Shown here: piece by piece, positions 7,931-54,700 of the stretch
Position numbering within the stretch: position 1 is the first letter of the stretch
Layout of the letters: each line of letters opens with the position of its first letter
From: Argopecten irradians
Lineage: Eukaryota; Mollusca; Bivalvia; Pectinida; Pectinidae
DNA: 64,000 bases
Direction: 5' to 3'
NCBI RefSeq assembly: GCF_041381155.1
Contig: NC_091138.1
Coordinates: forward strand, 34,031,604 to 34,095,603
Made by a program: the position numbers and the translations under genes
Notes under the pieces: generated by a model
The model's database searches: none
What the model saw: the letters and a program-made list of their open reading frames with translations, nothing else
Told to the model about the DNA's origin: nothing

Positions 7931-10900
7931 CTATGATCTATCATCTGTCATCTCGAGAAACTGGGCGTAAACATCACGAGTACATTCCCCTTTGGGGTTG
8001 AAGACAAACTTGTAATAACTGCCATCTGCACAAACCACTGTAATCAGAAATAAAACAAAATTGTTAATATTACTAAATCATAACTTTTCATTTATCTTAG
8101 AAGTAAAATATCATGAAAATTTAGTACACATGGCAAATACATAGATAAAAGTCTTAAGTTGGATTTGAAAGGGTAAATTGCAGGAAAGACTAACCTGCAT
8201 TTGACACTGAAGTATAAATCTCCTGCACAGTAAGAGATTAACTACAGACAAGATTTTTATCTCTTTAATGTAGGTCAAAGGGTCAAAATGTATGACAAAG
8301 CGACCTACTTGTCGTAAAAGATAACCCCAGCATGAAACTGGGAAAGTGGAAAATATATTGCTAGAACCATTTTACAGATAATGAGATTTATCTAAGAGTC
8401 TAGGATTTAAGAAGTAGTATTGCAAACATAATTATTAAAACATCTTTAAGACAAGTAAACCAATATCTTTATAAAGTTTTGTAAGAATTGAGAAAGTTAC
8501 CGATCACAGAGTTGGAGTCTGCACCAAAGGCACACAGACATCTAGCACCACCGGGCACCTGGAACTTGGAGAAACTCCAGGTAGAGCTGAAGTATTTAGG
8601 CAAGAAACTGGCTGATCCTATGCTGTAATAGAAAGCAAATATACCTATATGTGATCATGAGAAACTCCAGGTAGAGCTGAAGTATTTAGGCAAGAAACTT
8701 GCTGATCCTATGCTGTAATAGAAAGCAAATATACCTATATGTGATCATGATCATGATAAAATTAATTTTTCAGAGAAAGTCACATTGTATATCCACATAA
8801 TCATAATTACCTTATTCTTGTTATAAAATTAATAACAACAAAAATTAGAATTATTTTTTATATCAAATTGATATACATGCAACTCAACCTTTTATCAAAA
8901 GTCTTTTATGTATAACAACCAGACTTAAAACTTAAAATTTACTTTACACTAACCTGAATACTCAAAAAAACTCTGTCGAAAGATTTGCCACTATCCTAAT
9001 GACTTCAAGACAATGAGATTATATAGTACTTTGAAAATATATTGAAAACATCCAAGGAACAATTCCTGTACAGTAACATTTTCTATTCTTACCTTAACTG
9101 TTTGTTTTTCTTAGAATCCTCTGTAGAAAATATGTGTACAGTCCCATGATCACTGGCCACACACAAAAATGTTGAGTCTTGGTTGAAATTGATGCTGGAA
9201 AATATAGAGCATACACATCAGGTTTACACCTCTGTCGAATTTGTGACACATGCAAATCAAACTTTCATGAAAGGAAATGCAATACAAAAGCTCGGGCTAA
9301 ATCTTTTTGCTGACAGTCACATATACCATGGAAATTGTGAAAACAAACAAATTGATGGCAGTTGTACTTAGTATAGGTGCTTGAGGTTCTGACTCTAAAA
9401 ATTTTTTATATTATAAATACACACCAGTATATATGAGCATTGTTGGCCCCTCTCCTTAGTTCATGTAGCTGCAGTCCAGATATAGTATCAAACACTCGGA
9501 TCAGTGTTCCCTGAAACAAAGAACATTTTAATTCACCCTGAAATTACATAATGAACTGTTCCATCCTTTGCATAGGAAGAGCTCAAAGGTGTCTACTGGG
9601 GTGAAGAAGTTGATCAACAAAGCATCCTCATGCTGATATTCATTGTTACACAATGAAATTAAAGACATCACCAATATATGATATACTTTTTCTGTAACAA
9701 CTGAATTTTATTTTTGGCAGCAAAGAGAGGAGAGCTGTTGATTTGGCACCATTGATTACAACACCAAAGTTCAATGTGGTAGTCATTCAAGGATATGATA
9801 GATATGAGCAAAAGACCTGTATATAGCTAGGCCTTGGTACTGTACATGTGGGTAGTATTTAGTGAGCACTGTTCAGTCTATTACAGAGTTACATCCCTTG
9901 TGGGTAGGTGTCCATTATGACATCATTGTTTTGTTTTGTAAGTGAAACTCACATTGTTTTCTCTGGTCATTATGCAAATTGTTAGCAGTTTGATGCTGAA
10001 ATAAAAATGAAGAGAGAGAGACTACCTTTTCTGATGAGGTAGCCAATCGCGTACCCTGTAAGTTGAGGGCCAAAGAACCTACCTTTTCCGATGAGGTGGC
10101 CAAATGCGTGCCCTGTAAGTTGAGGGCCAGAGAACCTACCTTTTCTGATGAGGTAGCCAATCGTGTACCCTGTAAGTTAAGGGCCAAAGAACCTACCTTT
10201 TCTGATGAGGTGGCCAAATGCGTGCCATGTAAGTTGAGGGCCAGAGAACCTACCTTTTCTGATGAGGTGGCCAATCACGTACCCTGTAAGTTGACGGCAA
10301 GAGAACCTACCTTTTCTGATGAGGTAGCCAATTGTGTACCCTGTAAGTTGAGGGCTAGAGAACCTACCTTTTCATATGAGGTGGCCAATCACATACCCTG
10401 TAAGTTGAGGGCTAGAAAACCTACCTTTTCTGATGAGGTAGCCAATCGTGTACCCTGTAAGTTGAGGGCCAGAGAACCTAACTTTTCTGATGAGGTGGCC
10501 AATCACGTACCCTGTAAGTTGAGGGCCAGAAAACCTACCTTTTCTGAGTGGCCAATTGTGTACCCTGTTAGTTGAGGGCTAGATAACCTACCTTTTCTGA
10601 TGATGTGGTCAGTCGTGTACCCTGTAAGTTAAGGACCCAAGAACTTACCTTTTCTGATGAGGTGGCCAGTCGTGTACCCTGTAAGTTGAGGGCTAGAGAA
10701 CTGAGTGAAGCCTCATGAGCTGCAATATCCAGTGGTGACTTTTCAGTGTTGGCCAGGTCTACTATCTGTACATGGCCAGTCTTACGTCCAGGGAAAGTGA
10801 GTAGTGAATTGTTACTGTTTGGGCACATTACGCATAAACCTGAAAATGTATAAGCATTATTAAATATAAGTTTAACAATCTGTTTATTGCTATAGTTACC

Positions 10901-13900
10901 AACCAGTTACTGTAAACCAACTTTCTTCTGTATGCAGTTTATTTTTGCTAATTTTGTGATCAACTTAAAGATGCTCTACTGCCGACAGAGCATAAATGAT
11001 ACCCATCATTTGAACAGTAATTGGTGTTTAATCGTATATAATATATTTATGTTTAATTAACACAAAAAATAATATGATATAATTTTTTTTGCCTTGGTGC
11101 ATGCACAATCAGTTCTTCATTCCATATAGGATACTGTAGTGTCAAGGATTTTTTTCGGGATGAAATTAATTATTATTCATATTTTTAACTTGGAAGTAAA
11201 TTTATCAAAATTAGACGCTCAAACTTTTAAATGGTGGTAATGGGGTAAAGTAAGTAACTTTTGTAACCTTTTTGAAAATCACTATATTATCTGCCCCTGT
11301 TTTTGATAGCGAAAAATTACCATTTGTCTGCGGTGGATCATCTTTAATCTCTGTTAATACATATTGAAATGGAAATCACGAAACTTAGCATCAGAGAAGC
11401 ATTTGGTTTACAGTAGTAGGAAAGGTAATTCTTATATGGGTGTATAGATCTGTGAAAGCATATATCGAAAAGTTCACAATAAACCAGAATAATGTTTTGG
11501 GTTTCCCAAGGACACAGAACTTACAGTACAGACTAGTACATTTCTCAGATTTCCACAAAAACAAATGACTCATCTAAAATCATGATCATACCATCAACCA
11601 ATAACAGACTTTATATACAGTTAATAAGTTGATACTTCCAATTGTTGACTATCTCGAGCTTCCAAGGGATACTATCACTGTTGTTATATTTACCCCTGGA
11701 CAATGTCATTGCAAAACTGAAGGGTCTGTGTGCGATAACAGATGAGACAGGTAGTTTGGTCCTTTGATGTACATCAAAAGCATTGAATAACAGAATATTT
11801 TTGCACACTATGGTTGATCGTATGGCTTTGAAGTCAAGTGTCACACACCTAATCTTCAAAGGAAGCTGACTCTGTAAGCCTGTGATTTGTCTTATTTTCT
11901 CCAGAAAAGCCTACAGTCTTATATGACACAGTCCAGGGGTGGATATTATGACTGTGATAGTAACCCCTGGGATATCAAGGATGACAGAGGATGTCCCTAA
12001 TAAAGTAAAATTGGTATAATCCATTGTAAATTATATGAGATTATGTTCTGAGCTGTCTCCTAGTGACTGATCGTATAAGTCATCAGCAATCTCCATTCCT
12101 CTAACATAGATAAAATTACTATCTGTATATTTACAGTACTTACCTTTAGGATTGGCACATGTCTCAAACACATGGAGCTGTTGTGGGGTCTGTGTGAACG
12201 TGTAGACTTTAATCATCGTATCTAACACCACCACAATTCTGTAACAAAATCATACAGTCCACATTAAATACGATGCCCAAATTTCATTAAATAAAAAGAT
12301 CTAGTTTAATAGTTCTTCATACCCTTCAAAACCAGACAATTACTACAGCAAATAACATCTTCTTTTTGACGTTGAGTCTAACACTCATTCTGATTTGTCA
12401 GAGTTACTTCCCTTGGTCTCACTCCATCAGTATTAACCAAATCATCCTCGATTTCGATTGTAGGAATCATAGATGACCTAATCCATGGAAATCAACGATC
12501 TGAGTAAAACGAGGGGAAGTAACTCTGATACCTCATAAAGAGTTTTACTAAAACCCAATAAGTATCAAACCCAATTCTACATGTATTTTGGTAGAAAATG
12601 AACACAAAGTCAATCTGCAAGCAAATAAAATTTTACAAAGGTAAAATATACACTTTTTATCTACTCTAGAATAAATACTGACAACATATTCTGAATGAAA
12701 CCTCACCTATCTCTGCGAAGTCTCACACTTCTAACTTCTGTTGAAAACTCCAATTCTATCACATTTTTCTTCTTTAAGTCATCCCACACCATCACTGTTA
12801 ACAAAATTATATAGTATCTTAATACCTACAGGTACTTTATTCAGTTATTAAAACAATGTGACTCTGGTTTTAGAACAAATGTATAGTATTCGGCTGCATA
12901 TTATATCAATTGCAAAGTATATAAGCTGAACAAAATATCAATTTGGCAGATACAATGTATACGACATTTATTTATATTCCTTTTAAATCTGTGCTTTCAA
13001 AGAAGTACCTGTATCAAATTAGCCAATCAGAAAATTAGAATTACCAAGAAAACAAAGCAAAATAATTATAATGATATATATAGAGATACATTGAAAGCGC
13101 TTTGCTTTGAGCAGTTTTATTTTCTCAATACATTGTATATATGTACAGCAGAATGAAAATTAAAATTCTAAGAAAGGAGATAACAAACATACCTTTATTT
13201 GGAGGATACTTTGGATTTTTGCCTCCACCAACTAATGCTAAATAATTACATCGAAATAGCATTTCAATGTGAGTGATTCCGCCATCTGCAAAATCTGTTG
13301 GAATCAAATGACCAAAAATCTCATTGGATTATGGAAAATTTAAATTAGCTGCACAGAAAAATATTCATGAAAACAATACACCAATACAAAAATCTAAAAC
13401 AAACTATCTTAATATGATCAAAATAGAAGCTATTTGTCTTCCTCTCACAATAAATTAGAAACAAAGGGTGTGAACACTGAACAGTGAAACCCTGGTATGA
13501 TCGCCAGTTTAATAAGGTCAAACTTGACCACAGCAATAATTTACACTGGAATGGATTTACAAACACTATGATTATTCCTATGCACAAGAACATCTTATAA
13601 TATACAAGTGTATATGTGTCACATAAAATTAAGGAAATAAATTACCTTGTCTTTCTTTTTCTTTTAAAGGATCTGAATTATACACTCGGAATCCTGTTTC
13701 CATCCCACAAGCAAAACATCCTTCAAAAAGAAAACAAAGTCATATGTCATATGTGTATTGGACTCAGTCTGTTATCTCCAATCAATTGGTTTGGTTTGTT
13801 TGTTTTAAACCTCATTTTAACGACGAGTTAGTTCATCATTTACAATTGCGTCTGGTTAGTGAGGTAGCTAGGAAAAGCCAGAGTACCTACAGAACAACCA

Positions 13901-16308
13901 CAGATTTATAATTAGTACTTTGCAACTGCCCCACTTCGATTTCAAAAGATGGGTGGCCTGAGGTTAAATGTTAATTGACATGTCTTAACCACTCTACCAC
14001 CACAGCCCTGTCCTAGCTATAAATAATCTTTATTGACAGTCAAAATTAATTATCACAGTAATTTTAATAGTAAAATTATATGCTATAGGCTTAATAATGG
14101 GAGTATGGGATTTTTGCATGGTTACTAAAAATATTATTTCTTTAAGAGGGAATTGACCAAGGATGTTATTATCAATATATTGTCATTGAAAAAAACATGC
14201 AGAAAAAGCAACCACTTCCATGATGCATTAATGCATCATCAGAACTTAAAAAGTTAAAAACTTTTGACAATTAAGTGTCTATCAAACGTCCAAAATACAT
14301 TTATAATGTTTCACAAGAAATTCAAAATAAAAATTAAGCCAGAGTAAACTCTGCAGATCAATAATAGTGTAATTCTCATTACTCCTTGTTCGGGACAGCT
14401 AGTAGGTATCCCTAGCTGCGACAGCATTCAGTGGAGCACAACAGACCGTGTTAGTTTTATTGTGTAGCGGTAAAACCAGTTCTCTGCCAGACAGCAGTTA
14501 AATGAGGACAAAGCTCTCACAGGTACTCCATGCTTATATATTTGTATTCCCGAAAGATGCGTAACTTGCAAGAAATACTTTTTATACAGATAATGCATAC
14601 CATGAGGGTTTGTGTATATTAATTTCACCCGGCATTACAAAAGTGTATCACATATTTGAAAATTTATGCAATGTCTTGTAGAGTTCCCCAACCAGAATAT
14701 TTGAACTTGGATCTCCAGGGCGTTAGAATTGTACCTGCTGCCCCTATTGCATGATCGTAAAAGGCGACTAAATTTAGGATCTTATCTTTTCTATTCTTCC
14801 TAACTGACTTTATCCTTCCTAATGCCTCCTTTGGCACCGCCTCACTTTTGGCCTTGAGTTGAGCGTTCGCCCCTGTGAGGAAGGCTCTGGGTTCTGTCCC
14901 CTGGCCGAGACACACCAAAGTCTGTAAAAGTGGTAGTTTCTGCTCCTGCTTAGCGCTCAGCATAAAGGGAGTGGGACGACTGGTTCGCCCGTTGTCAGTA
15001 TAATGTGACCGGGTGGGGTGTGTTGCTTGGTGTCTTCGGCGGCATGCTTCAGTGATATAGCACTATAAAAAGGGCAACAGTTCCACTATACAAGAAGACA
15101 CAACATGAATATACCGCAGTCTCCCAAAACACGCACCTCGCACAACATACACGCAACACATCGCATACATGGGAGGCCGTCCTTACATGACCATAGCTGT
15201 TAATAGGACGTTAATTAATCAAACAAACAAACAAACAAAATCCCCAGCCAGAATTTGAACTTGGATCTCCAGAGTGTTAATCAAATATGGCTCTACAAAC
15301 TAAACTAAAGAAGTGTAACAGGAGAGGAGAAAATGTAGCGGCCAGACCGGGATTCGAACCCGGGACCCTCAGAATACTAGCCGAGTGCTCTACCGACTGA
15401 GCTACCTGGTCACCGATGATCGACCCAGTCCAATCCCGCTAAAGAAAGAATATATCCCAGCATCTAAATGATCAGGGGAAAATATACACATACGTGTATG
15501 TATAACACTAATGACTCTTGTAAAAGGATTAGAAAAAAATGTAGTAGCCAAATCAGGATTTGAGCCCAGGACCTCTGAACATTAACCGAATGCTCTATCG
15601 ACTGAGCTACATGGTCACCTATGATCGACTCAATCCAATCAAGGATTTGAACCCGGACCACTAGCCAAATGCTCAATCGCTGAACTACCTGGTCCCTGAT
15701 GATCAATCCATTCCAATACTGCTACATTCCTCCCTCCTTTTTCAATGTCTTTGCACTCAAAGACATACGAGACCCTTATACCACCACCGTGGTAACAGGA
15801 GAGGAGAAAAATTGGCAGCCAGGAGAGGAGAAAAATTGGCAGCCAGACTAGGATTTGAACCTGGGACCTCCAAACACTAGCCAAATGCTTTTTCGACCAA
15901 GCTATATAGCTACCTGGTCATGATCATTGATGATTGAACCAGTCCAATTCCACTACACTCTTTTATTTACAGCTGCAACAGTATTATGATATTGTTATCT
16001 TATCTATAATATTTTATTTATTTATACAAATGTTTTATTAATTATTTACCTGAATTTTTTATATGATTATTATCTATCTATATTATTCATACCGTCACTG
16101 TTTGAAAGTTACATTACAAAATGAATCTTATACATTCAAACTTTTTATTTAGATAATGGCATAGAAATTGGTTCCAAGAAATGCTACAGTAGCCAAGTCT
16201 TACATCCAGCCAGATGATGATAATTTACAATATACACAAACCTTGGTCTTGGTTCCATCCTGCATAAAGCAACCCATTGCCGTATTGGTTATCTCCAACC
16301 AAATTCAT
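7931..16308 (-). CDS. WDR45B: WIPI3 / WDR45B, PROPPIN-family autophagy protein (10 exons)
   Basis: Exons in transcript order: 16308-16242, 13720-13646, 13285-13193, 12794-12707, 12238-12144, 10839-10649, 9510-9425, 9194-9093, 8622-8501, 8037-7931. All junctions are GT-AG and phases join to 341 residues (human WDR45B is 344). The protein starts [17 protein letters not shown] and ends MTDDRS. Family landmarks include [23 protein letters not shown] and NPKG. The phosphoinositide-binding LRRG motif (residues 221-224) lies in exon 7. Members are seven-bladed WD40 propellers that bind PI3P and PI(3,5)P2 on autophagic membranes. WIPI4/WDR45 lacks the PKYPPNK form, so WIPI3 fits better. Oddities: a 12-copy tandem array of the exon 6 donor region fills much of intron 6, and a 90-bp duplication covers the exon 9 acceptor. 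The start codon shown is the only ATG that gives the family N-terminus. Confidence 0.95.
8569..8748. repeat. 90-bp tandem duplication across the WIPI3 exon 9 acceptor
   Basis: Two near-identical 90-bp copies (8569-8658 and 8659-8748) each hold, on the minus strand, about 36 bp of intron 8, the TATTACAG acceptor and the first 54 or so bases of exon 9. They differ at only about one position, so the event is recent. The copy next to the full exon (acceptor at 8623-8624) must be used. Starting from the outer acceptor (8713-8714) and reading on meets a TGA soon after the copied exon part. Confidence 0.9.
9879..9965. mobile_element. Half copy of foldback MITE family A
   Basis: One arm only: ATTACAGAGTTACATCCC then GTGGGTAGG and a TATGACATCA motif, matching the left arm of the 4942-5140 element. 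It lies in WIPI3 intron 6, next to the junction array. Confidence 0.55.
10022..10705 (-). repeat. 57-bp tandem array of the WIPI3 exon 6 donor junction (about 12 copies)
   Basis: On the minus strand each unit is about 52 bp of the exon 6 end followed by about 5 bp of its donor. Translated, the unit reads [19 protein letters not shown], 19 residues, against the true exon end [18 protein letters not shown]. The true donor at 10648-10647 is GTAAGT. Almost all other copies carry GTAGGT at the same place, and one copy (near 10480) has lost the GT. Each unit also contains TTACAG just before GGTAC, an acceptor-like site that splits it into a 27-nt and a 30-nt part. Because the unit is a multiple of three, read-through stays in frame until a TAA in the third copy. 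Open frames on the plus strand here are shadows of the repeat. Confidence 0.9.
11652..11981. mobile_element. Foldback element, family B, larger copy
   Basis: The left end carries an AGGGATACTATCACTG-like arm and the right end CTGTGATAGTAACCCCTGG, an imperfect inverse. Internal sequence shares ATGTCATTGCAAAACTGAAG and TCCTTTGATGT with the shorter element at 29615-29760. It sits in WIPI3 intron 5. Confidence 0.55.
12399..12527. mobile_element. Short palindromic MITE
   Basis: The ends are CAGAGTTACTTCCC and GGGGAAGTAACTCTG, inverted repeats about 15-25 bp long around a 75-bp unique centre. It lies in WIPI3 intron 4. The terminal motif recalls family A but the interior is different. Confidence 0.6.
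14717..15240 (+). mobile_element. SINE-like dispersed repeat with (CAAA)n tail
   Basis: Begins near GGGCGTTAGAATTGTACC and ends in an AATCAAACAAACAAAC tail, as expected of a retroposed element. It contains GTAAAAGGCGACTAAATTT, CTCTGGGTTCTGTCCCCTGG and GACGACTGGTTCGCCCG, all shared with a partial copy at 30944-31237. No long open frame. It lies in WIPI3 intron 1. A LINE 3' end is an alternative. Confidence 0.6.
15333..15957 (-). repeat. Cluster of four tRNA-derived SINE units
   Basis: On the minus strand the best copy (about 15430-15333) reads like a tRNA: GGTAGCTCAGTCGGTAGAGC is an A-box and GGTTCGAATCC a B-box. The acceptor stem has one mismatch and the anticodon loop is eight bases rather than seven, so it is not a normal tRNA. 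More decayed copies follow at about 15540-15640, 15640-15725 and 15830-15957. All share the leader motif TGGACTGGGTCGATC or a variant. They lie in WIPI3 intron 1. A fifth copy is at 58217-58330. Confidence 0.75.
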
Positions 16309-16663
16309 CGTTTTGTTTGGAATTTACGACAACATCGATAAAATGTTTAAGTTATGTCAATGCCTATTTATAATTTACGGAAATGAAAATTCGTCAACAA
16401 ATCACACACCCCCAACGCAAAGCTTCAGAGTGCATTATCAGTCAAACGCAGAAATGACCATGATGTTTGCAAGGTGAAGGCCTAATATGTAGTCTCAAAG
16501 CAAAAGTATATAGTATTATTTAGAATATAATTTATCTAGGTATCTGATCACATCTTATTTTTTAGTAAAGTTACATTGTTTTCTAACAGTAAAAATAAAT
16601 ACAAAATATTTATAATCATATAAGAGGAATGGGATACTTCCTTTATAGATTACGTCAGCAAAG
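16309..16663. promoter_or_regulatory. Divergent WIPI3 / ECHS1 promoter region
   Basis: The start codons of WIPI3 (16308, minus) and ECHS1 (16664, plus) are 355 bp apart and transcribed away from each other, so both 5' UTRs and core promoters must share this stretch unless an upstream non-coding exon exists. I see no convincing TATA box. The DNA is AT-rich in the middle. Confidence 0.6.
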
Positions 16664-26446
<9,783 letters not shown>

Positions 26447-27340
26447 TTCTGTTGCTCACTGTGGAAGCGTATTGGAAACGAAAACAAATATTTTTTACCA
26501 ACTTGATCAACTTAATCAGTCGGTATTAACTGGAATTATATAACTGTATAAATTGGAGCTTATAAACTTGCAATAGACATTCTTAAGTAGTCAGTTAGAA
26601 CGCTGTAATTTGCTGAAAAGTACACCAGGGTAATATTTGAGAAGAAGAGGAATTCAGCATTTAGAATTAAGTACAGTTTATTTGTGAATAACTGAAATGA
26701 AAGCTCACCAGATTTTGTGAATAGAGAAACTATATGAATACTGAACATTTGTTTCAGAAATTGATGTTCACATTTCACAGTGACTGGTAATCAGTCATTT
26801 CTATTTTCATTTTGTCAGCAAGTTCGATAAAGATAAAATGCCAAGATTAAAAAATGTCCCTGCTTATGCCACTGTATTTTAATTCCAGTAGATTTCTTAC
26901 TTTGAAATGAGAATGATGTATGTATTGATGATGAATTAATGTTTAAAAGTTTTGTATTGTGTGATTGAGGTCAGGCTTTGTTAATGCTGAGCATTATTGA
27001 AGCACACATATAGCTAATTAGTGCTCATACATGTAATGTGATATTGAACTGTATCTATGTATGTAGAATTACATTGTATAGATCCTGCAAATTGATTAAA
27101 AATCATGATTTTTTGTCATTGTTGAGTACTTATTTTTGTTCTTCCCAGAAGAAGCAAGAGGACTTATTTCATTGAGGTTTTACGCGATTCTTTCATTAGT
27201 GGGTCAGAAATATACCATTCACAGCTATCATGTATGCCTCACACCACCATAATTCCCAGTACTTAATTCTAAATAATCTCATCTAATATGCTATGTGTAA
27301 CACAAATATTTTATTGACAGAAATTTTACCATTGGTTGTT
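26447..27340 (+). other. ECHS1 3' UTR and downstream flank
   Basis: Directly follows the ECHS1 stop codon. The DNA is AT-rich without exons. ATTAAA near 27095 is a possible polyadenylation signal, but no canonical AATAAA with a clear downstream element was found. Confidence 0.4.
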
Positions 27341-27342
27341 GG

Positions 27343-28365
27343 TGGTTTTAGTACAAAGACATCCATTGGTTGTTGGTGGTTTTAGTACAAAGACATCCAT
27401 TGGTTGTTGGTGGTTTTAGTACAAAGACATCCATTGGTTGTTGGTGGTTTTAGTACAAAGACGTCCATTGGTTGTTGATGGTTTTAATACGGAGACATCC
27501 ATTGGTTGTTACGGGTTAAGTACAAAGACATTTATTGGTTGTTGGCGGTTTTAGTACAAAGACATTCATTGGTTGTTGGGGGTTTTAGAACAAAGACATC
27601 CATTGGTTGTTAGGGGTTTTAGTACAAAGACATCCATTATATATTGGTGGTTCAAATCAAAGTCATCCATTGGTTGTTGGTGGTTTTAGTACAAAGACAT
27701 CCATTGGTTGTTGGTGGTTTTAGTACAAAGACATCCATTGGTTGTTGGTGGTTTTAGTACAAAGACATCCATTGGTTGTTGGTGGTTTTAGTACAAAGAC
27801 ATCCATTGGTTGTTGGTGGTTTTAGTACAAAGACATTCATTGGTTGTTGGTGGTTTTAGTACAAAGACATCCATAGGCTGTCAAAAGTTTTAGTACAAAG
27901 GTATTCATTGGTTGTTGGTGGTTTTAGTACAAAGACATCCATTGGATGTCAAAAGTTTTAGTACAAAGGTATTCATTGGATGTTTGTGGTTTTAGTACAA
28001 AGACACACATTGGTTGTCAATGGTTTTAGTACAAAGACATCCATAGGCTGTCAATGGTTTTAGTACAAAGACATCCATTGGTTGTCAATGGTTTTAGTAC
28101 AAAGACATCCATAGGCTGTCGACGGTATTAGTACAAAGGTATTCATTGGTTGTTGGTGGTTTAAGTACAAAGACATCCATTGGTTGTTGGTAGTTTTAGT
28201 ACAAAGACATCCATTGGTTGTTGGTGGTTTAAGTACAAAGACATCCATTGGTTATTGGTAGTTTTAGTACAAAGACATCCATATGCTGGCAATGGTTTTT
28301 AGTACAAAGACATCCATTGGATGTTGATGGTCTTAGTACAAAGACTTCCATCGGTTGTTATCAGT
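27343..28365 (+). repeat. 34-bp minisatellite, about 30 copies
   Basis: The unit is about 34 bp with core CATTGGTTGTTGGTGGTTTT then AGTACAAAGACAT. Copies from about 27345 to 27470 and 27660 to 27860 are nearly identical. Elsewhere variants such as TAGGCTGTCAATGG replace the middle. Each unit holds a TTTTAG that looks like an acceptor, but no exon adjoins the array. Minus-strand open frames here are repeat translations. Confidence 0.9.
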
Positions 28366-28559
28366 TTTGGATGAGTGGAATCTTTGTCCTCCTAATTATT
28401 TGAAATGATAGTTTTCAGGTCAGTTGCAATTGCATTGCTGTCATCATGCAAAGTTTTCTATTGGTGTAATTCCTGGTCGCAAATCCAGTTGGGATGAGAT
28501 TCAAACTGGTTGATTTTGGTGGTTGGAGGACCCAAGACTGATGAGGTATGTTCTAGTGA

Positions 28560-29270
28560 TATCTATTTCACATCCCCCGTGTTACATTGGAGGAATCCAA
28601 TGGTTCTATTTGCCTCAGAAGCAACCATGTCAATATTTGTGTGCTGATTGTCACTCCACAGGCGTTTGGCTCTATAGGCATTTTCTCTCTATATATACAC
28701 ACTGTATGTAATACTGTGACACAGTATTACATATATATATAGAGAAAATATCTATAGAGCCAATCGCCTGTGGTCACTCCCAAGTACTTACTGGACTTCC
28801 TCTAGAACACTACCGTGGAAGTTGTAATTGGTCTGAACTGGTTTCCTCTTCTGGGTAATGCTCAACACTACACATTTGTCTGTGTTGAAAACCATGTGCC
28901 AGTCCTTTGCCGAACGTTCTAGGGATAACAGGACCTGCTGGAGCAATCTGCCCTGGACTTGGATGTCTCAATATAGGAGGCTGTCATGTGAGAAAATCTT
29001 GCATTTGGAACATGTCGTCAGACGTCTCCGGAAGGTCGTTTATGAAGTCTGGGAACAGCAGAGGTCCAAGAACTGCCCCTTGTGGTACAACAGATGTTAC
29101 GGGTGTTGTTGTTGATGTATTGCAGTCGAGTAGTACCTATGTTCACATCCTTAGGAAGTACTCAGTGCAATCGTTTGTCTCTTATCATAGAATGTTATCC
29201 TGTAAAGTAAGCGTCCATGGGGTATACTGTTGGTTAAAAAATTGTGCCAGGTCCCTGTTGTTTTACAGAT
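28560..29270 (-). pseudogene. LINE reverse-transcriptase fragment (dead)
   Basis: On the minus strand, pieces in more than one frame match non-LTR reverse transcriptase. From about 29110 to 28985 reads VPQGAVLGPLLF then INDLP, the conserved block after the FADD region in LINE polymerases. From about 28925 to 28780 reads WHMVFNTDKCVVLSITQKRK and later VLGVT, the palm and thumb block. The frame shifts and has stops, and only part of the polymerase is present. A foldback element is inserted at 28658-28772. The style recalls Jockey/CR1-type LINEs, but the clade is uncertain. Confidence 0.75.
28658..28772. mobile_element. Near-perfect foldback element inserted in the LINE fragment
   Basis: About 115 bp formed almost wholly of two arms, ACAGGCGTTTGGCTCTATAG on the left and CTATAGAGCCAATCGCCTGT on the right, meeting at an ATACTGTG/CACAGTAT centre. 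GTCACTC(C) occurs on both sides (28650-28657 and 28773-28780), a 7-8 bp target duplication. It interrupts the VLGVT block of the reverse transcriptase. Confidence 0.8.
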
Positions 29271-36583: not shown

Positions 36584-36602
36584 CCAATCAAATTACAACA
36601 CG
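36584..36602 (+). promoter_or_regulatory. ERSE-like element upstream of the PDI gene
   Basis: The sequence CCAATCAAATTACAACACG fits the ER stress response element CCAAT-N9-CCACG with the spacing exact and one mismatch (A for the first C of CCACG). It lies 118 bp before the PDI start codon. Vertebrate ER chaperone and PDI genes use such boxes, bound by NF-Y and ATF6/XBP1. Function here is inferred. Confidence 0.45.
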
Positions 36603-36719
36603 CCGTTAGTCCGTCTGTATACTGGCATGCGCACACAACACCGGTCTCTATTGCCACGTTTACCCACTGACAGAAGACGTATTGAAGGATCTCTCCCCAA
36701 AACTGGGTGACTTATCATC

Positions 36720-42696: not shown

Positions 42697-43450
42697 ATTA
42701 TCATTTTAAAACTGCATTACTTTCAAACCTCTTAGTTTTTTTCCATCATTGATATCCAGGTACATGTAAATTGTGATTTTGTGGGAGGCAGCTGGGTCGA
42801 GATATTTTTATAACTGAAGCCTCAATATTGCTGTTACCTTCGATGACAGGGTGGGGGGACGGGATATTCAACTGGGAGGATGTTACTTAATATTTTATTT
42901 GAAGATTATTTTTCCCATTTTTCTTCTCATTTTTTTTTTAAATGAAGGTGAAAAGATTTATCTTCAGAAAGGGGAGAGATCGCTCCAATACTCTTCAATT
43001 TTTTTTAATTGAATTAATGTCTTTCTGTCTTTTTTCACCTTCAATATTTGAAGTTGTAAACGGGAAACGGTTGAATGAGTGTGAACGTTGATATGCATGT
43101 GTTATTGAACGAAAAAGGGAGATGTGTACATTATCAGATTGTCAAAATTCCATTAGAGAGATGAATACTAGTTTTGAATAGATTGTTTGTGATGATCTGC
43201 TAGTGTATGATATGGTGCAAACTTACAATTATGTGCTTTAATATTAAACTTAATGCAAGATGTATGTGACCAACAAAAAAAAATAACCTCAAGATAAGTT
43301 TTAGTAATATTTATCAATTTAAACATTCGACAAGGTGGAATTTTCTTGCTTTTGTTGAATATAACTAAAATTTGCCATACTGTTTTATACTAACAAGTTA
43401 GTGAACTAAGAATGAAAAAATAAAAAGATACATCTTAATTTCTTTGTCTT
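42697..43450 (+). other. PDI 3' UTR with polyadenylation signal
   Basis: T-rich DNA follows the stop codon. AATAAA at 43419-43424, then a TTTGTCTTTGTATTCTGT stretch, is a good poly(A) signal about 720 bp downstream. No other feature is seen. Confidence 0.5.
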
Positions 43451-43488
43451 TGTATTCTGTATCTTTGTATTCTGTATCTATGACCGGG

Positions 43489-43665
43489 CATTCTGCATTT
43501 GGATATTGTAGATTGATCTGCCCTTGTGGATAGATAATGATTGGAGTGCGAGCGTAGCATCATTTTTGGAGAGAACATAATGTGCCTTTTGCTCACAAAA
43601 TAATGAAGTCACAATCAGCACCTGCTCGCCAGGGGAGATAAATCTTTAATATGCTAGGACAGGAT
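43489..43665. mobile_element. Foldback MITE, family A, copy 5
   Basis: Contains ATTCTGCATTTGGATATTGT, ATCTGCCCTTGTGGATAG, CAAAATAATGAAGTCACAAT and CAGGGGAGATAAATCTTTAA, in the same order as other family A copies. It lies between the convergent PDI and FERRY3 genes. Confidence 0.6.
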
Positions 43666-43837
43666 ATGAATTACTGGAAGGTGTATTTTAATCAAGTACC
43701 AGTTATTCAAATATGAAGAACAAAACATTAAAAGAGCTACCATGAAAGCAAGTTTCCTTCTTGACATTGCATTCATTTGGGAAAAACATTAAACAATGCA
43801 AAAAACACAAAAACCATGTCGGTAAAGAAGGAATCTG

Positions 43838-44160
43838 TGGGATGAAACAAAATTCCAGAGGGATTTTGGCGTCCACCATTGAATGATCTATGTCCGTGAA
43901 AGGAAGGAGAGATATTTTAAGACTTAAAATGGAATTAACATGAAATTTGAGGAAGAACGAAAACAGACTTGAATTGTCAAAATCAAAGATTGCTGCCTGG
44001 AAAGGTCCTAAAATGAAATATGCAATGAAATTTGAGAAAGACATCTTCAAAGAAATAATTAACTTCTATAGTCAAAGTCCAATGTTGCTATCTTTTGTTT
44101 TCCGATCAGTTCCAAAATGCAATATGCACGCCTATAGGTACCTTAGGGGAACCTTCAGTA
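43838..44160 (-). repeat. Decayed inverted copy of the 25370-25915 repeat
   Basis: On the minus strand GACATAGATCATTCAATGG, ATCCCTCTGGAATTTTG and several TCAAATTTCATG-type phrases follow the order of the 25370-25915 element, with many differences. Confidence 0.45.
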
Positions 44161-45778
44161 ATTAACGTGCTAACAAACTTCAGTTGTCAAAATCCACATA
44201 ACTGGTCCACTTAGTCATGTCATATACAATCTATAATCTATGATAAGACACGTGTAATAACTATATTATGACATCACACTGGTAATAACATTTTTGTTTG
44301 ATTTTTTTCCCCTCAAAAATCCAAGATACTACTTTCTAACAAACGAATGATGTGATGGTAAAATATTTAAGGGTAGATAACTCCACAATGCAGAGAATCC
44401 TCGACTACAAAAGATTGATATAAATGAACCTGTATGAATAGTAAACACTTATAATATCCTATTGTAAAAATAACAAAAAAAATATCTCTCTTCTTCATTG
44501 TTTTTATTATTATCCTGAAGACAACATTCAACAATATTTACATAATTAAATTCAACACAATATTGCACATTGACAATTTCTATTAAGGTTCTGTTTGTAC
44601 TGACACAGCAATGAGTTTGGAAAAACAAACCCACTAACTTCATTATCCTATGTTTCTAAGTACATTTAGAAAAACAAATTACAAGATTAAAATGTCAATT
44701 TTGTGCCAAAAGCCTGAAATCTGTGGGAAAAGGTCACTGCCAGCAGTTTTGAATAAGAAGTCTTGTACATGTAATTATTTTTTTTAATGCTGCTTAATTT
44801 GCATACAATAGTAAATATGCCATTACAATGTACATATTACAAGTATATATGGAAATATATTTTTCATTCATATCATCTGATGGTAGGTTAAGCTTACAGG
44901 GCCGTTTTCGATTATATAGTTTGACTGTTTGGACCTTGTTCATTTATCAATTAAAGAGACCTGGTGATTTTATATTGTTTTTAGACGAGCCTTGACAAAG
45001 CCATCACAGGCCTGTATCAAAAACTGCAGGTCCGTCAGGTTTTATACTTGAAATAATGACTTAAACCAATGGTCGAACTGGTTGTTCAGAATAAACGAAA
45101 AAAGCCCTGGTTTCAGAAATACATCCACTGTATCCGTTTATTGATGCATAATTTGCATATTAAATCATATGGAAAACTTGCATATATAGTAGATCTATGT
45201 TATGATTTTCACATCATGCCATTTGATACAGTGTCAAGAAATTCTTCTATGTTTCATAAGTACCAGTACACACTGTAGTTGTTCTGAATGAAATGTTCTA
45301 GTATGTAGTTGACTTCTATCACACAACAATATCCTTAGTAACTAAAATGTTTGAAACTAAAAAAATATGGCACAGTGTTATCTGAATCGTGGTATGATTT
45401 ATTTCAATATTTATGCATTTTGAATATGTATTTTTTCTACCAGTATATATATATTCTGTACTTTCATCATTTTTTTCTGACAAGTATATCTGTAAGGTCT
45501 AGTTTTCTTTGATCTATATTTTAAACACTTTCAATTGTTAGCAAATGTTTTTACAAATTTAAATAAATCCCCATACTATTGAGGTTTCAAAAACTTTGAA
45601 ACTGTAATTTAATTGGTAAAACTTTAAGATAAATTGGCAACACAGCAACATTTCTGTATTTTAACACTGTTGGACATCATTTTTATATCAATAAAATATT
45701 GAGACAAGGTACATGTCCATGTTACTATAGCGGCTTGCCAAAGAGTCTGACGAGTCCACAACCTAACTTTTGTTGTTG
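44161..45778. other. Spacer between convergent genes, including FERRY3 3' UTR
   Basis: No exon seen. On the minus strand AATAAA (plus 45398-45403) about 375 bp past the FERRY3 stop is a possible poly(A) signal. A GGGTAGATAACTCCAC motif near 44370 is a remnant of family A. The 44898-45107 stretch has loosely inverted ends (AGGGCCGTTTTCG, CGAAAAAAGCCCTG) and may be an old DNA element. Confidence 0.4.
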
Positions 45779-48700
45779 TTACCGGCCGACGTGTGATACT
45801 TGACTAGATTTGACAACCACTGGATTAGACAGCCTGAAGATGGTAGTAAGTAGGTTACTGATGCTAGCGAACATTTCCTCTGACAATCCCTGTAATGACA
45901 GTAACGTTCATCAACGCAAGGGAGATAACCTATTTCCATTAACAACAGTAAAGGCTAGAACCAAAAGTAATATTTATTTTAATTGCTCAGTAAATAAGTA
46001 TAAACTCAATTACCCCTGTAGACACATTTGAACTCATCTTAATCAAAGATTGGAACAGTTCATTATAAAATTCAAGGTGCGAGAGAGTTAATGAGTTAAC
46101 GTTGAAAAAAAAAAAAAATTCATATCGCAATATTTATATGCAAAATCGTGAAGTAGAAATGAAAATAAATTCAAAATAATTTATTTTATTTATAAAGGTG
46201 CTTATGTACAACTGAATTGAATGCAAACTCATTGAAATCTAGCATAATTTTGTACAATAGAGAAATGTATACATGTGGAAGATATGAACTGACTATACAT
46301 ACACAAGGAACCAGGAACTGGATGGTGCGAGAATTCTGGCCGCCGTAGGTGACCATCTCCATCATGAATCCTTTGACACACTTAAACATGAGTTCGGCTC
46401 TTCTCTGACACCACTGTATAGTCATCTCCTACAATATTTCAGGTGATATTTCATACAGGACAAAATGGGGGTAAAATTTTATAAACATTTAACTAAAATG
46501 TACGTCTTGTAGAATTCGTGTGGTGATGGAACCTAACTACCCGGTATATGTATTAAGGTAGACCGTCCCTTCTGGTTTCCTCTCATAGATTTCAATTGAT
46601 TTTGATTTTAGGTATACCCTGATCACAAAAACCGCATAAAAATCATATGTCACCGGATTAATTTTCTTCAAGGGTTGCTTAAAGATATGTACTAATTACT
46701 GACGATTTAAGAAGCGAGTTGTAATAAATGGGTATGGAGAAATAAAATACGTTTGCCGGGATCCGGATAGCGATGTTACAAACGTATGACGTCACAGAAG
46801 GGATGGTCTACATTAAGTGTAATCTTCTCGCTAAAATGACTTTTGCGCAAGATATCATCATTAAGCGTCATTCCATCACCGATAGAAAAAATAGTACCGC
46901 ACAAACCTTATTACCGGTAAGTATCATATGGTACATGAACTAGTCCCCTTTGCATTAAGGATCACAGATCCTAAACACAGACTAATCTCAATTTAAGCTC
47001 CTATCAGTTTAATGTACATCATGATGTTTACACAACTTATACCTGTGATAAAATATTGAGGATTATTCAATTTTATGATCACAAGTTCACAAATTAATTT
47101 TATCTGTAATCATCGAAGATCAGTGCTTGGAATGTTAGTACAATTAATTCAATTTATGTAATTGGAAGACCATGTAAAGGTATCTGAAATATTTTTTGGT
47201 CCTCGCCAAACTTTATAAATTCAACCACTCTTAACCTGAATACTACCGTTATTTAAAGGTTAAACACAGTCCAATTAAATTTGAATGAACAAGATTTGAC
47301 TAGTCATTTTTTTTTTTATACAGGAAAACGTTTAAATACAGTGTCAATTTCTTTATTATGCCCATTCAATGACACAGAAGAAGGGGAATTGAATATAATG
47401 ATAAAAGATCTACTGATGGATACAATAGAAATCCACAGTTAAAGTTGTTTACTGGGGAAAGCTTATTCACCATTTCCTTACCTCGGACATTTCATGACTT
47501 AGTAGAAGTGGGATGGTGAGGGTTGTGATGTCCGATCGGAAACACAGCTTGATGATGTTACGGATGCTGAGGATTACAGGATGTCTAGACGAGATATCAA
47601 TAGAACGTGTACTGTCATCAGTGACCAGATGGAACACAGTATGTACTTCTGATAAATTGGAATGTTTCGTGATGTAAAAATCTCCCACCTGGATTTTATT
47701 CCCTTTGTCCTGCTGCCAAACAAAGATATTACACAAATGAAACCATGGCTTGAAAATGGATTCAAGATCTCAAAAGATTTAAACCAATTCTAAAATTGTA
47801 ATATCAAAGATTTTGAACAAATTTGCAAACACATAAATTTACAATCTTTTTTTTTTTAGTTACATGTATTTGCAACACATTTAAATTTTGTATCTGATCT
47901 CTTTCACGAAATTACACGAAAATTTGTATTTTGTGAAAATAAAGTTGTTACCTACCTGGTATATGCTAATACATTGACATAACAGACACCTTGACTTAGT
48001 CTCACACTTTTAGTAAAGCTATGTTTCCCAATATTTTAGATATGCTCTGATTTTCCACTATTCTCACTGGTTAATATATGGTCGCTTGATGTCTGATTTA
48101 CATATATAGCATATCGACTGTTGTTTCCATTTTTAGAAATACCAGGTCATCATTCATTTAGTGACATCACAACCGGACCTTATTGGACTTGTAAAAACTA
48201 TTACCCAAACATCAGAGTTCTTCAGGGTGCTATCCTATGGTCATTGTGGTTCTTATAATTATCATAAACATAAGAAAATTATTTTGACATTAGAGATCAT
48301 TATTTTATATGATATTTACCAGTTGGGTATCCCCACTAGAACTGCTACTACTACTTTTAATGCTGATTTTGTCTCCTTCTTCTGACATCTTCTTCTGGGC
48401 TTTCAGCTCATTAAATTTAGCTATTTCCTTATCGACATTACTGAACTGTTGGTCCAGACTAGGGAAATGGAAGTCAGTAGACTGTTCACAAACTTTTGAA
48501 AAATCTGAAAAAAATATAAAGCAGACTTAATTAAGCAAGGTATTTGCATTAACTAAAATGAAAGGCTAATCAAACAGAACCAATGTAGTAAATACTGACT
48601 AATGGCTACTGGCTATTCTTAGAACCAATATAACACCTAATTCTGAACTAATGTAAAGATAGGTTCCTTATTACCAGTATTTGCAGTCGATTTTCACACT

Positions 48701-51700
48701 CCTCAAACTTATCTAATATAAAAAAAAAATTCCTGGGTTGAATTTAGCAGTGAATTTTACTAAATACGCATTTTCACATTTCTGAAAGGACTCTGTGTCT
48801 GTTCCAAATGCGATGTCTTACCCCGTTTGATCCCTGTATAGGAGTTGAGACGATTGTCCACCATTAGAATGAGACCACATAAATTATTGGAGTATAGAGA
48901 CATGGCTGTCTGTAGTCTCTGGGGCTGAGGGATGACCAGGCCACTGTAAACATAGCAACATAGTCTGTGTTATAATATAACTGTAACCATAGCAACATAC
49001 TTCTGTGTTATAATATAACTGTAACCACACAACATAGTCTGTGTTATATTATAACTGTTACCATAGCAACATTCTCTGTGTTATAACATAACTGTAATCA
49101 TAGCAACATTCTCTGTATTTTACCCTGTGTTATATAATAACTGTTAACAACTATAGCAACATACTCTGTTTTTTAATATAATTGTAACCACAGTAACATA
49201 GTTTGTGTTATAATATAACAGTTACCATAGCAACATATTCTGTTGTATAATAAACATTGTTGGCATTGCGCAAATTATATGTACTAGACACACAATTTTC
49301 CTTTGGATAATTACTTTCTTTGCAGCACAACATTAGAGATTATTTTATTAAAGTGAGGGTTTCCAGTCTTACATTGACATCTAACAATATTCTTTTGAAA
49401 ATGTTGCAATATACATGCTTCTAAACAACTGAAAATTCACCAATTCTCTTCTAGTATTGGAAAAAATAATTTTACATGATTTCGTTTTGATCAACCCTCA
49501 AGATTTGGCTTGTCAACACTCGGTAAACTTTATGGATATAAGGATTGAGATATATTCCTGGTAACTCAATACACACAAGTCAGATTGTAATAGTTATATA
49601 TTTTATCCTGGTAACTCAATACACACAAGTCAGATTGTAATAGTTATATATTTTATCCTATCTGGTGTGACAGTCATATTACAAACACTTTTACAATCAA
49701 TATGGTGGCGGCTACATGTCGTCAGGTGTAATACCTTAATCACATATTTATACTGAGAGATGATCATATCTTTCTGTTCAGGAATTTTTATTACAGATAT
49801 TGTTTTGTTTCTCTGACACCCACATACACACTGGCGTAAAAAGATGGAAGGATACCTACCCGACAGTGTGTGTTTTATGACGACACAAATCAAGCACATC
49901 TGTACACAGAAGTCGCAGGTTATGCGTAGTTTTCATTTGAGCACCTGGAAAAAATATTTAATGAAATACAATACATGTAAGTGATAGTGTTTTGGGCAAA
50001 ATTTTAATATCTTAATCTGGTTAAGATATAATTCAGAATGTTTTCAATATGAAATGAATATCCTTATGACACTGAACTCATTTGATCATATAGATTCGAT
50101 GGATATCAATGAAATCTCGATAAAGTCAAGTCCATGGACCTTCAATAACATTTTATCCATGTGTTTGAGTTCAGTGTTTTTGGGTCTTCAGGTTATAGGA
50201 ATTCAAGTTAATAATATAGATTAGCAACCTAGCCATCTTTGGTACACAAATTTGATATCCATTACACCAATGACATGAGCAGTATATTAGATATTACCTA
50301 GATGTACAGTGAAGCTCTCCTCCAGTCGTGTTGTAGCCGATGTTCTCTCTTCTTCCTCAGCCTCTGGTAGAGTGTTACTCAGAGCCCTCACTCGGCCACT
50401 GTATTAGTAGATCAACAACAACTGGATTAAGCTACATACGTCATTACACGTTATGAATTAGATAATACATTGTCTGGTGAAATAACAATGTCCTTACTTA
50501 TTCCTATGGAAGAACAATATCAGTTATTTTGTAGCTTTGGTGGACAGTAGCTTATGGTAGAATATCTGGCAGATCACTGAATCATATATGATACTCTTAC
50601 AGATATAACGCAAAATATTGTTTTAATGAAACTGTCTTGTTTTGCATGCGAATTAAAAATCTTTTAGCCACAAAAATAACAGATTTTTTGTGTATACCAT
50701 TTGTATTTCCAATCATTTGTTTTGCTATTGAAATATGAATTTGCTGTTACAAGAGGAGCATAATCTTGCTTTAGTTTGTGTGGGACAATGAAATATTCCA
50801 CATAAGTTTCATGATATTTGAAATGTTTGTATCAATATTTGACCAGTTCCTTATTCAATAGATATATAAATTAAGCTCCATAGAATTACCTAGGCTCTAG
50901 TCATGTTGTACTTACATGTATGAAGGTGATTTAGCAGGAGTCTGAGTATCTTCATGAACTTTGATGATCCACTCCCGGAATTCACGTTTCTGGATTTCCT
51001 TCAGATTGTTTAACTCACTAGTCCATTTACTTTCTATTAACTGTAACAAAGTATTTAAAATTACACCAAGTAAACTTTATTACTCATAGGTTGGCAAAAG
51101 CCCCATACAGTGACCATCTATAAGCTTAATGGTCATATGGGCCTGAATTGTTTGCCTTTTAGTTACCTAGTGATCCTAGTCTATGCTCTAGACAAAGTAT
51201 TCTGTATTTGCATATCTGCCCTTGTGGGTAGGCACTGATTGTGACCTCATGTGTTTTTGAGCATAGTGTCATACTTTTTCGGGAATATGACATGCATTTT
51301 GCACACAAAATAATGACGTCACAATGGACACCTACCTGCAAGGGAGTTAACTCCATAATATACAAAGACAGAATAAGAAACAAAGGCTAAAATATCAATG
51401 AACTAGATGGGTGAGCATGATTTAAATATCTCTGAACTTTTGTGAGTTGCTTGAGCGTTATCAAAATATTTCTGAATCAGCTGATTGATTTACCTGAGCG
51501 TTACGAAATGTCTCTGATCTAGTTGACTGATTTACCTGAGAGTTGTTGATATGTCTCTAAGCCAGCTGGCTGATTAATCTGAGCAGTTATCGAAATGTCT
51601 CTAAGCCAGCTGGCTGATTTTCCTGAGCATTATTGAATGTCTCTGAGCCAGTTGACTGATTCACCTGAGCGTTATTGAAATGTCTCTGGACCAGTTGACT

Positions 51701-54700
51701 GATTTACCTGAGCATTATTGAAATGACTCTGATCCAGTTGACTGATTTACCTGAGTGTTATTAAAATGTCTCTGATCAAGTTGACTGATTTACCAGAGCG
51801 TTATTGAAATGTCTCTGATCCAGATGACTGATTTACCTGAGCGTTATTGAAATGTCTCTGGACCAGTTGACTGATTTACCTGAGCATTATTGAAATGTCT
51901 CTGATTCAGTTGACTGATTTACCTGAGCGTTATTGAAATGTCTTTGAACCAGTTGACTTATTTACCCGAGCATTATTGAAATATCTCTGATACAGTTGAC
52001 TGATTTACCTGAGCATTATTGAAATGTCTCTGAGCCAGTTGACTGATTTACCTGAGCATTACTGAAATGTCTCTGATACAGTTGACTGATTTACCTGAGC
52101 CTTATTTGAAATGTCTTTGGACCAGTTGACTTATTTACCTGAGCATTATTGAAATGTCTCTGATCCAATTGAGTGATTCACCAAAGCGTTATTGAAATGT
52201 CTCTAAGCTAGCTGGCTGATTTACCTGAGCTTTATTGAAATGTCTCTGGACCAGTTGACTGATTTACCTGAGCATTATTGAAATGTCTCTGATCCAGTTG
52301 ACTGATTTACCTGAGTGTTATCGAAATGTCTCTGAGCCAGCTGACTGATTACCTGAGCGTTATTGAAATGTCTCTGTTCCAGTTGACTGATTTACCTGAG
52401 TGTTATCGAAGCGTCTCTGAGTCAGTTGACTGATTTACCTGAGCGTTATTGAAATGTCTCTGTTCCAGTTGACTGATTTACCTGAGTGTTATCGAAGCGT
52501 CTCTGAGTCAGTTGGCTGATTTTCCAGAGCATTGTCGAAATGTCTTTGAGCCAAGTGACAATTTACCTGAACGTTATCAAAATGTCTCTGAGCCAGCTGA
52601 TTAATTTACCTGAACGTTATCAAAATGTCTTTTAGCCAGCTGGTTAATTTACCTGAGCGTTATTGAAATGTCTCTGAGCCAGTTGACCGATTTACCTGAG
52701 CGTTATCGAAGTGTCTCTGAGCCATTTGGCTGATTTTCCTGAGCATTGTCGAAATGTCTTTGAGCCAAGTGACAATTTACCTGAGCGTTATCAAAATGTC
52801 TCTGAGCCACTGGCTGATTTACCTGAGCGTTATCAAAATGTCTCTGAGCCACTGGCTGATTTACCTGAGCGTTATCAAAATGTCTCTGAGCCACTGGCTG
52901 ATTTACCTGAGCGTTATCAGATGTCTTGAGCCTGATTCTGAGTTTCAAATGTTCTGGCCCTGATTTACCTGTCAAATGTCTCTGAGCTGCTGGCTGATTT
53001 ACCTGAGCGTTGTCGAAATGTCTCTGAGCCAGCTCATTAATTTACCTGAGCGTTATCAAAATGTCTCTGAGCTGCTGGCTGATTTACCTGAGCGTCAAAT
53101 GTCTCTGAGCTGCTGGCTGATTTACTGAGGTCGCTAATGTCTCAGCTGCTGGCTGATTTACCTGAGCGTTATCAAAATGTCTCTGAGCCACTGGCTGATT
53201 TACCTGAGCGTTATCAAAATGTCTCTGAGCTGCTGGCTGATTTACCTGAGCGTTATCAAAATGTCTCTGAGCCACTGGCTGATTTACCTGAGCGTTGTCG
53301 AAATGTCTCTGAGCCACTGGCTGATTTACCTGAGCGTTATCAAAATGTCTCTGAGCTGCTGGCTGATTTACCTGAGCGTTATCAAAATGTCTCTGAGCCA
53401 CTGGCTGATTTACCTGAGCGTTATCAAAATGTCTCTGAGCCACTGGCTGATTTACCTGAGCGTTATCAAAATGTCTCTGAGCCACTGGCTGATTTACCTG
53501 AGCGTTGTCGAAATGTCTCTGAGCCACTGGCTGATTTACCTGAGCGTTGTCGAAATGTCTCTGAGCTGCTGGCTGATTTACCTGAGCGTTGTCGAAATGT
53601 CTCTGAGCTGCTGGCTGATTTACCTGAGCGTTGTCGAAATGGTCTCTGAGCTGCTGGCTGATTTACCTGAGCGTTGTCGAAATGTCTCTGAGCTGCTGGC
53701 TGATTTACCTGAGCGTTGTCGAAATGACTTTCCTCTCAAATGCTCTGCTGGCTGATTTACCTGAGCGTTGTCGAAATGTCTCTGAGCTGCTGGCTGATTT
53801 ACCTGAGCGTTGTCGAAATGTCTCTGAGCTGCTGGCTGATTTACCTGAGCGTTGTCGAAATGTCTCTGAGCCAGCTGACTAATCTGTTCATCAGTATAGG
53901 CATTCCCTTTACCAGTATTCAGTGCCTGCTGCATTTCCTTTGCCTGTCTGTAACATACAATCAATTGATACAGCTAGATCACAATTATTTATAATCTATT
54001 AATATCTTACCGGCAATAAGCCCCTACCCTAGAAATAAATCTTGGGAATTTAAGGGGAATGGTCTTATCACTGAATGTATAGTTTTTTTCCTCATATCTC
54101 AGAATTATGATACACAAATGAAGAAGTGGCATTACATATTGCTGGTAGTAAATGTTTCGCTTCTATTATTAAGATTAAAAATAATTTCAATTATTTTTTT
54201 TAGTTTTAATTTAATAACTTCAATTAGGATGTCTGTATCTTCTGACCGTAGTAAGCCAACAACGAAAGATTGTCATGTTTTATCAAGTTAATTGTAAAAT
54301 TTGGTATAAGTCAAAAGCCCGATATGAGAAATATATAAGTCATTGAAAAAAACAACAACAGTTAAACACTGCTTTCAATATACAGAATCAGGTATAGAAT
54401 TTCTTCTACTATAATAAAATGCAAATCGGATATTATGTGTATCATAAAAACATAAAACAAAGTAAGATGCAGTTGTGTTATTGTCAAACTCATCAACTAA
54501 GTCAGTCCAAGGGAAGTAACTCTATATATCAAATATTTTGCTTTAAATTTTTCTACTTCAATAATTTGAAGACCCCAGAAAGGTTCAAAATCAAGCACAA
54601 TCACATAATTGTGAGGTTGACTGTTGTTTTCTTATTCATTATCTCTCTATGGGAGAAAAATGTTTGCTGAGAGAGCAATGTTGGTATAATTCAGTGTCAA

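Follow-up and report, generated by a model that had tools for sequence, protein, structure and literature searches.

The window analysed here, 64 kb of the Argopecten irradians genome, carries three genes, WIPI3, ECHS1 and FERRY3, and five tandem arrays that end on real exon-intron junctions of these genes, as shown by homology together with an exon scan. The genes were placed by tblastn with the human proteins as queries: WIPI3 lies on the minus strand (16308-7937), ECHS1 on the plus strand (18818-26440) and FERRY3 on the minus strand (57965-45800). A splice model recovered all 9 WIPI3 introns, all 6 that separate the ECHS1 exons found and, in FERRY3, 7 of 11, some of them poor. Exon numbers follow the first-pass annotation of the window; ECHS1 exon 1 was not found in the window by tblastn. 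The FERRY3 exon 4 donor was placed by exon scan and sequence, the splice model lacking FERRY3 introns 3-6. Tandem Repeats Finder (TRF) returned 42 rows for the window, and the five arrays are:

10015..10701, minus strand: WIPI3 exon 6 donor array, 57 bp, 12 copies; exon 10649-10839, first intron base 10648 (TRF, tblastn, splice model)
8569..8750, minus strand: WIPI3 exon 9 acceptor duplication, 90 bp x 2, 98%; exon 8501-8622 (TRF, tblastn, splice model)
21532..22795, plus strand: ECHS1 acceptor array at the GAGGTQRL exon, mixed 29/54 bp; exon 22770-22874 (TRF, tblastn, splice model)
51452..53877, minus strand: FERRY3 exon 4 donor array, 42/43 bp, 57 copies; exon 53845-53947, first intron base 53844 (TRF, exon scan, neighbouring exons by tblastn)
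48943..49260, minus strand: FERRY3 exon 8 acceptor-abutting array, 37 bp, 8 copies; exon 48822-48943 (TRF, tblastn, splice model)

The first-pass annotation had described all five units as containing a true junction. The arrays lie where it placed them, and exon and intron sequence share the unit in four; the FERRY3 37-bp unit, however, is intronic (0-1 exon base) and merely abuts its exon. The WIPI3 exon 6 unit comprises about 48-50 exon and 7-9 intron bases, is exactly 57 bp long in 11 of 12 copies, and matches at 85% across the array (TRF). At FERRY3 exon 4 the unit holds 26 exon and 16-17 intron bases, with 84% matches (TRF), and the 57 copies include 22 of 42 bp and 26 of 43 bp. The ECHS1 54-bp unit consists of 28 intron and 26 exon bases, and is interspersed with the 29-bp unit, which is almost purely intronic. 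The region 8569-9200, with the WIPI3 exon 9 duplication, has a single match in the genome (one assembly).

As had been claimed, most copies keep the GT or AG of the junction, though not all do. In wrap-around alignments, the source of the copy statistics below unless a site count is named, GT is present in 11 of 12 WIPI3 exon 6 copies and 52 of 57 FERRY3 exon 4 copies (49/53 by a looser site count), and AG in 6 of 8 FERRY3 exon 8 copies (4/6 by the site count); in the site count of the ECHS1 array, 31 of 33 acceptor-like sites have AG.

Recurrence in other genes of the genome

Outside the window, searches for the kinase, helicase and AAA families yielded 81 loci, each about 3.3 kb long. Their exons were predicted with a finder that had been given 28 kb of coding DNA for training; its recovery of the 18 internal exons of the window (13 exactly, 16 by overlap) is not an independent test, as those exons were part of the training set. 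A set of 34 multi-exon loci, chosen by hand and covering 111 kb with 124 predicted exons and 248 junctions, contained 22 arrays with periods of 20-100. Six of these span a junction:

L034, presumably DDX41-like: 44 bp x 2.3, acceptor, found by eye and absent from the exon-scan list
L061, RECQL4-like: 84 bp x 4.8, donor
L062, presumably AFG2A-like: 46 bp x 14.7, donor
L063, presumably PSMC3-like: 89 bp x 5, 98%, acceptor
L073, presumably AFG3L-like: 39 bp x 2.6, 100%, donor
L074, PSMC2: 25 bp x about 13, donor

Thus, the observation is real and recurs in six further genes. The other 16 arrays lie outside predicted exons, and the proposal that only junction-containing duplications survive is not supported. 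Spliced by hand at the exon-edge site, the L074 product aligns without gaps over 140/140 residues, across the array, to 26S proteasome regulatory subunit 7; a query spliced in the same way across WIPI3 exons 6 and 7 likewise gave a gapless protein alignment. Splicing at the exon edge would therefore give a gapless protein in both genes checked, which lends indirect support to the idea that regular splicing is undisturbed. L061 aligns to helicase Q4, its array-encoded stretch falling in a gapped, poorly conserved part. Database matches of L034, L062 and L063 were to related bacterial and archaeal families only, and the L073 exon had no match in the Protein Data Bank (PDB).

Three loci that scored high in the exon scan were not taken for junction arrays: L015, whose 157-bp unit resembles one in L078, and L005 and L019, whose repeats apparently lie within long intronless reading frames. 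At L017 2398-3794, L005 1195-1363 and L019 3034-3270 the repeat periods are multiples of three (27, 21/42 and 30/90), and these repeats apparently lie inside long intronless kinase-like frames. Three separate loci, L026 1-859, L034 1959-3288 and L077 1-707 (stored orientation), have a tandem unit of 145 bp that by eye is much alike in all of them and has the look of a dispersed satellite. At L068/L069 (C1:53753306-53753770, minus strand), in a gene that we take to be katanin-like, an AAA exon is present twice, 306 bp apart, and these may be mutually exclusive duplicated exons.

We compared the sample with a null model in which the founding unit is placed at random. Junction-spanning arrays numbered 6 of 22 against 1.9 expected (P = 0.009), and variants of the test gave 1.6-2.1 expected (P = 0.003-0.014). 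The AAA loci alone gave 4 against 1.3 expected (P = 0.04) and the other loci 2 against 0.6 (P = 0.10). When the sample was widened to all 76 non-overlapping loci, 3.2 were expected of 38 arrays (P = 0.09). With periods up to 500, 4.8 were expected of 32 arrays in the 34 loci (P = 0.33), and 6.3 of 50 arrays in the 76 loci (P = 0.62). The 76-locus runs are harsh, their expectation being inflated by false exons in intronless frames, and longer arrays entered the test without a by-eye check of junctions. The excess in the sample is fragile to the choice of loci and periods. GC-rich seeds were rejected as its cause: the 16 non-exon arrays have a mean GC content of 0.31, compared to 0.32 for local non-coding DNA.

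In the window itself, 4 of 13 arrays have four or more exon bases in their unit, against 0.39-0.53 expected (P = 4e-4 to 1.3e-3), in a window that had been picked for its junction arrays. The 13 arrays are a hand list with periods above 20, which scripted merging turns into 14; eight of the 13 lie away from junctions. One of the window's arrays serves for comparison:

27329..28359, no strand assigned: 34 bp, 30 copies, 3' of the last ECHS1 exon found, 26381-26440 (TRF)

It is not among the arrays for which the exon scan listed an adjoining exon, and no junction was identified there.

Words typical of splice sites were counted across the whole genome, with pairs defined as word starts 20-50 apart, runs as pairs minus triples, and loci as singles minus pairs. 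The donor word AGGTAAGT, the one donor word with single and triple counts, occurs 52,563 times and its reversal 45,462 times; it forms 8,623 pairs and 6,785 triples, compared to 1,322 and 896 for the reversal. A second donor word, AGGTATGT, forms 10,496 pairs, compared to 3,940 reversed. Both lie above every one of the eight non-splice words examined, which form between 323 and 3,940 pairs, among them AGGAAAGT (3,889), TGAAAGGA (323), GATGAAGT (1,793), TGAAGTAG (1,361), GGACTTTT (1,187) and GGACATTT (2,528). The acceptor word TTTTCAGG forms 573 pairs, half as many as its reversal, while TTTACAGG forms 4,863, which is 1.9x its reversal and above all eight non-splice words; among the matches listed for TTTACAGG, one array fills all but three. 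Pair counts are swayed by long arrays, as the twelvefold spread among non-splice words indicates, and the word arrays were counted regardless of whether they lie in genes or at real junctions. Within these bounds, donor words stand out genome-wide and acceptor words disagree with each other. Two places found in the counts have structures of their own: an array of more than 6 kb with units of about 49 bp, in which the units with letters shown carry TTTACAGGTGTGT (G000:C1:2437117-2443322), and a 37-bp unit in which 16 bases seem to be flanked by both an acceptor and a donor (G000:C1:24407816-24407897).

Reading frame and splice sites across the copies

The expectation that exon-carrying units are multiples of three failed. 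Among the independent units (84, 39, 46, 89, 25 and 44 bp) only two of six are divisible by three, and the 46-, 89-, 25- and 44-bp units would shift the frame; in FERRY3 exon 4, 24 of 57 copies have a length divisible by three. The WIPI3 57-bp unit does keep frame, in 11 of 12 copies. Use of the upstream WIPI3 exon 9 acceptor would meet an in-frame stop in the 90-bp unit, and the last spare ECHS1 acceptor, if used, would also meet a stop. The arrays are not frame-preserving exonic repeats, with open units that are multiples of three. Selection for frame was rejected, since unit lengths are not kept in frame and some spares would run into stops.

Intact junction dinucleotides are also found in most copies outside the window: GT in 11/14 copies at L062, 10/13 at L074 and 4/4 at L061, and AG in 4/4 at L063 (by another site count, L062 14/14, L074 10/14, L063 5/5 and L034 2/2). 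When dinucleotides were ranked by conservation within the unit, without a formal test, that of the junction came 14th of 56 in WIPI3 exon 6, 13th of 41 in FERRY3 exon 4 and 23rd of 36 in FERRY3 exon 8; 29th of 53 or 9th of 28 in ECHS1, under the 54-bp and 29-bp unit models respectively; 27th of 45 in L062; and 18th of 24 in L074. It was kept below the unit mean in L062, L074 and FERRY3 exon 8. Identity of the exon part and the intron part was similar in WIPI3 (0.917/0.935), FERRY3 (0.901/0.867), L061 (0.923/0.915) and L063 (0.993/0.995), and higher for the exon part in L074 (0.928/0.885) and in L062 (0.947/0.857, where the intron part is 3 bases). Selection on the spare splice sites is not supported, since GT or AG is not consistently better kept than the rest of the unit.

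Splice-site strength was scored with a simple weight matrix built from a generic consensus. Spares that equalled or surpassed the authentic site numbered 44/52 in FERRY3 exon 4, 30/32 in ECHS1, 12/13 in L062, 6/13 in L074, 4/4 in L063 and 1/1 in L034. No spare reached authentic strength in WIPI3 exon 6 (0/11) or FERRY3 exon 8 (0/5). Two comparisons bear on a possible exclusion of the edge copy from homogenisation: the exon-edge donor of WIPI3 exon 6 reads GTAAGT and that of nine spares GTAGGT, and by eye the ECHS1 edge exon differs from the spares at two third positions.

Origin of the arrays

What gives rise to arrays of this kind? We consider it probable that they are of the type called mirages, that is, minisatellites founded across an exon-intron border, with a working copy at the exon edge and spares drifting in the intron. 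A founding tandem duplication, probably by slippage or unequal exchange, would have happened to straddle the border. The copy joined to the rest of the exon would stay under selection and serve as the real splice site, while the spares, on the intron side, would be removed with the intron and, as in other intronic minisatellites, could grow or shrink in number and drift. Because spare sites are often equally strong, we invoke exon definition and proximity as the means by which splicing would pick the exon-edge copy. On this best reading of the data, what makes a junction-straddling duplication tolerable is that the copy at the exon edge still works.

Several observations weigh against drift and tolerance as a full account. 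GT is kept above the mean dinucleotide in WIPI3 (0.92 vs 0.86) and FERRY3 exon 4 (0.91 vs 0.80), and in L061 and L063 no dinucleotide is ranked ahead of that of the junction, albeit with ties and only four scored copies each. The ECHS1 exon part matches the unit less well than the intron part (0.70 vs 0.96), which arises because 29-bp units without the exon part are mixed in. Finally, AGGTAAGT forms 1,838 runs in 43,940 loci (4.2%), compared to 426 in 44,140 (0.97%) for its reversal, a 4.3x excess per locus, and this suggests that something beyond neutral tolerance may be at work at donors.

The first-pass annotation had also suggested that some process favours duplication at junctions. Junctions, donors above all, would then be hot spots where mutation often produces tandem duplications, with transcription-linked R-loops or slippage at the border as examples of a cause; this would add to the explanation by tolerated duplication and not replace it. 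The junction excess under our main choices, its independence of GC content and the abundance of AGGTAAGT runs and of AGGTAAGT and AGGTATGT pairs speak for such hot spots; however, the excess fades with more loci or longer periods, AAA genes supply four of the six cases, long arrays make up most of the pair counts, the word arrays were counted at junctions and elsewhere alike, and acceptor words are in disagreement. We therefore regard junction hot spots as possible, if doubtful. Chance alone, in a minisatellite-rich genome with a window picked where several arrays happened to fall on junctions, seems rather unlikely. Off-junction arrays are indeed plentiful in window and sample alike, the choice of window was made post hoc and the excess is gone under wider choices, but the main test and the genome-wide prominence of donor words argue against chance. 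A first, crude null, in which random positions were scored for an adjoining exon, appeared to favour it, with about 14.9 hits expected in the loci against 8 observed at an equal score threshold (in the window, 1.2 against 5). We rejected this null for two reasons: the loci had not been turned into gene orientation, which left its coding model partly mistrained, and reading frames without introns had been scored as exons. The sensitivity runs led us to give slightly less weight to hot spots, also in their genome-wide form, and slightly more to chance. A donor-specific excess is suggested, not proven, by the word counts. It is possible, though less likely than not, that donors are genome-wide hot spots for minisatellite birth, at several times background; strings of spare, often equally strong sites would then accompany a few per cent of all junctions, and the spliceosome would have to choose the exon-edge site among them.

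That the spares are functional, as splice-site reservoirs or sources of in-frame protein variants, is very unlikely. The WIPI3 57-bp and ECHS1 54-bp units do read open, WIPI3 spares are in frame by tblastn, and many spares in FERRY3 exon 4, ECHS1, L062, L063 and L074 equal the authentic site in strength. Against this, none do so in WIPI3 exon 6 or FERRY3 exon 8, the dinucleotides are not consistently conserved, frame is not kept, and use of the upstream acceptor at WIPI3 exon 9 or of the last spare in ECHS1 would run into a stop. An assembly artefact, with repeats collapsed or over-expanded at real loci, is more improbable still: the near-identical arrays at WIPI3 exon 9, L063 and L073 would fit it, but the diverged, individually marked copies of FERRY3 and WIPI3 exon 6 are not something that assembly error invents. 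Copy numbers in the assembly could nevertheless be wrong. Taken as a whole, the earlier interpretation is partly supported.

Should the pattern prove general, mirages would be a frequent consequence of the birth of minisatellites and no peculiarity of lancelets, and they might give rise to new introns, to extended exons and to errors in gene models. In every array, nature has set up a competition among similar splice sites, as many as about 50 side by side, with the conserved protein expected from the site at the exon edge; the arrays would allow a direct RNA test of proximity and exon-definition rules. A donor bias, if true, would hint at a connection of DNA duplication with transcription or splicing.

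Relation to known systems

The first-pass annotation knew of no named description of this pattern, but it is already named. In amphioxus, "mirages" are reported for Adh3, the globins BflGb6 and BflGb9, troponin C and PGBD5 (PMC3087553, PMC3902484); they combine regular splicing, suggested by RT-PCR (PMC3087553), with length instability (PMC3087553, PMC3902484). Among the papers listed by literature searches, limited to open-licence PMC papers, there was no report of mirages in molluscs, which does not prove their absence.

The present arrays share the defining features of mirages. The unit spans a real exon-intron boundary in four of the five window arrays and in the six independent ones, and many, though not all, copies keep GT or AG. 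Both 5' and 3' boundaries are represented: the donor cases are WIPI3 exon 6, FERRY3 exon 4, L061, L062, L073 and L074, and the acceptor cases WIPI3 exon 9, ECHS1, FERRY3 exon 8 (abutting), L034 and L063. Whereas amphioxus mirages are reported gene by gene, those here come with a gene sample and genome-wide word counts in an 846-Mb genome, and are known from the DNA of one assembly.

Tandem repeats at exon-intron boundaries are likewise described in human segmental-duplication genes (PMC2812944), where they vary between paralogs and yield new introns or alternative transcripts. The Rogers model of intron gain through duplication of an AG/GT proto-splice site, as named in PMC3087553, likewise places splice signals in the duplicated segment. 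In contrast to that model, duplication in the arrays described here would lengthen a pre-existing intron.

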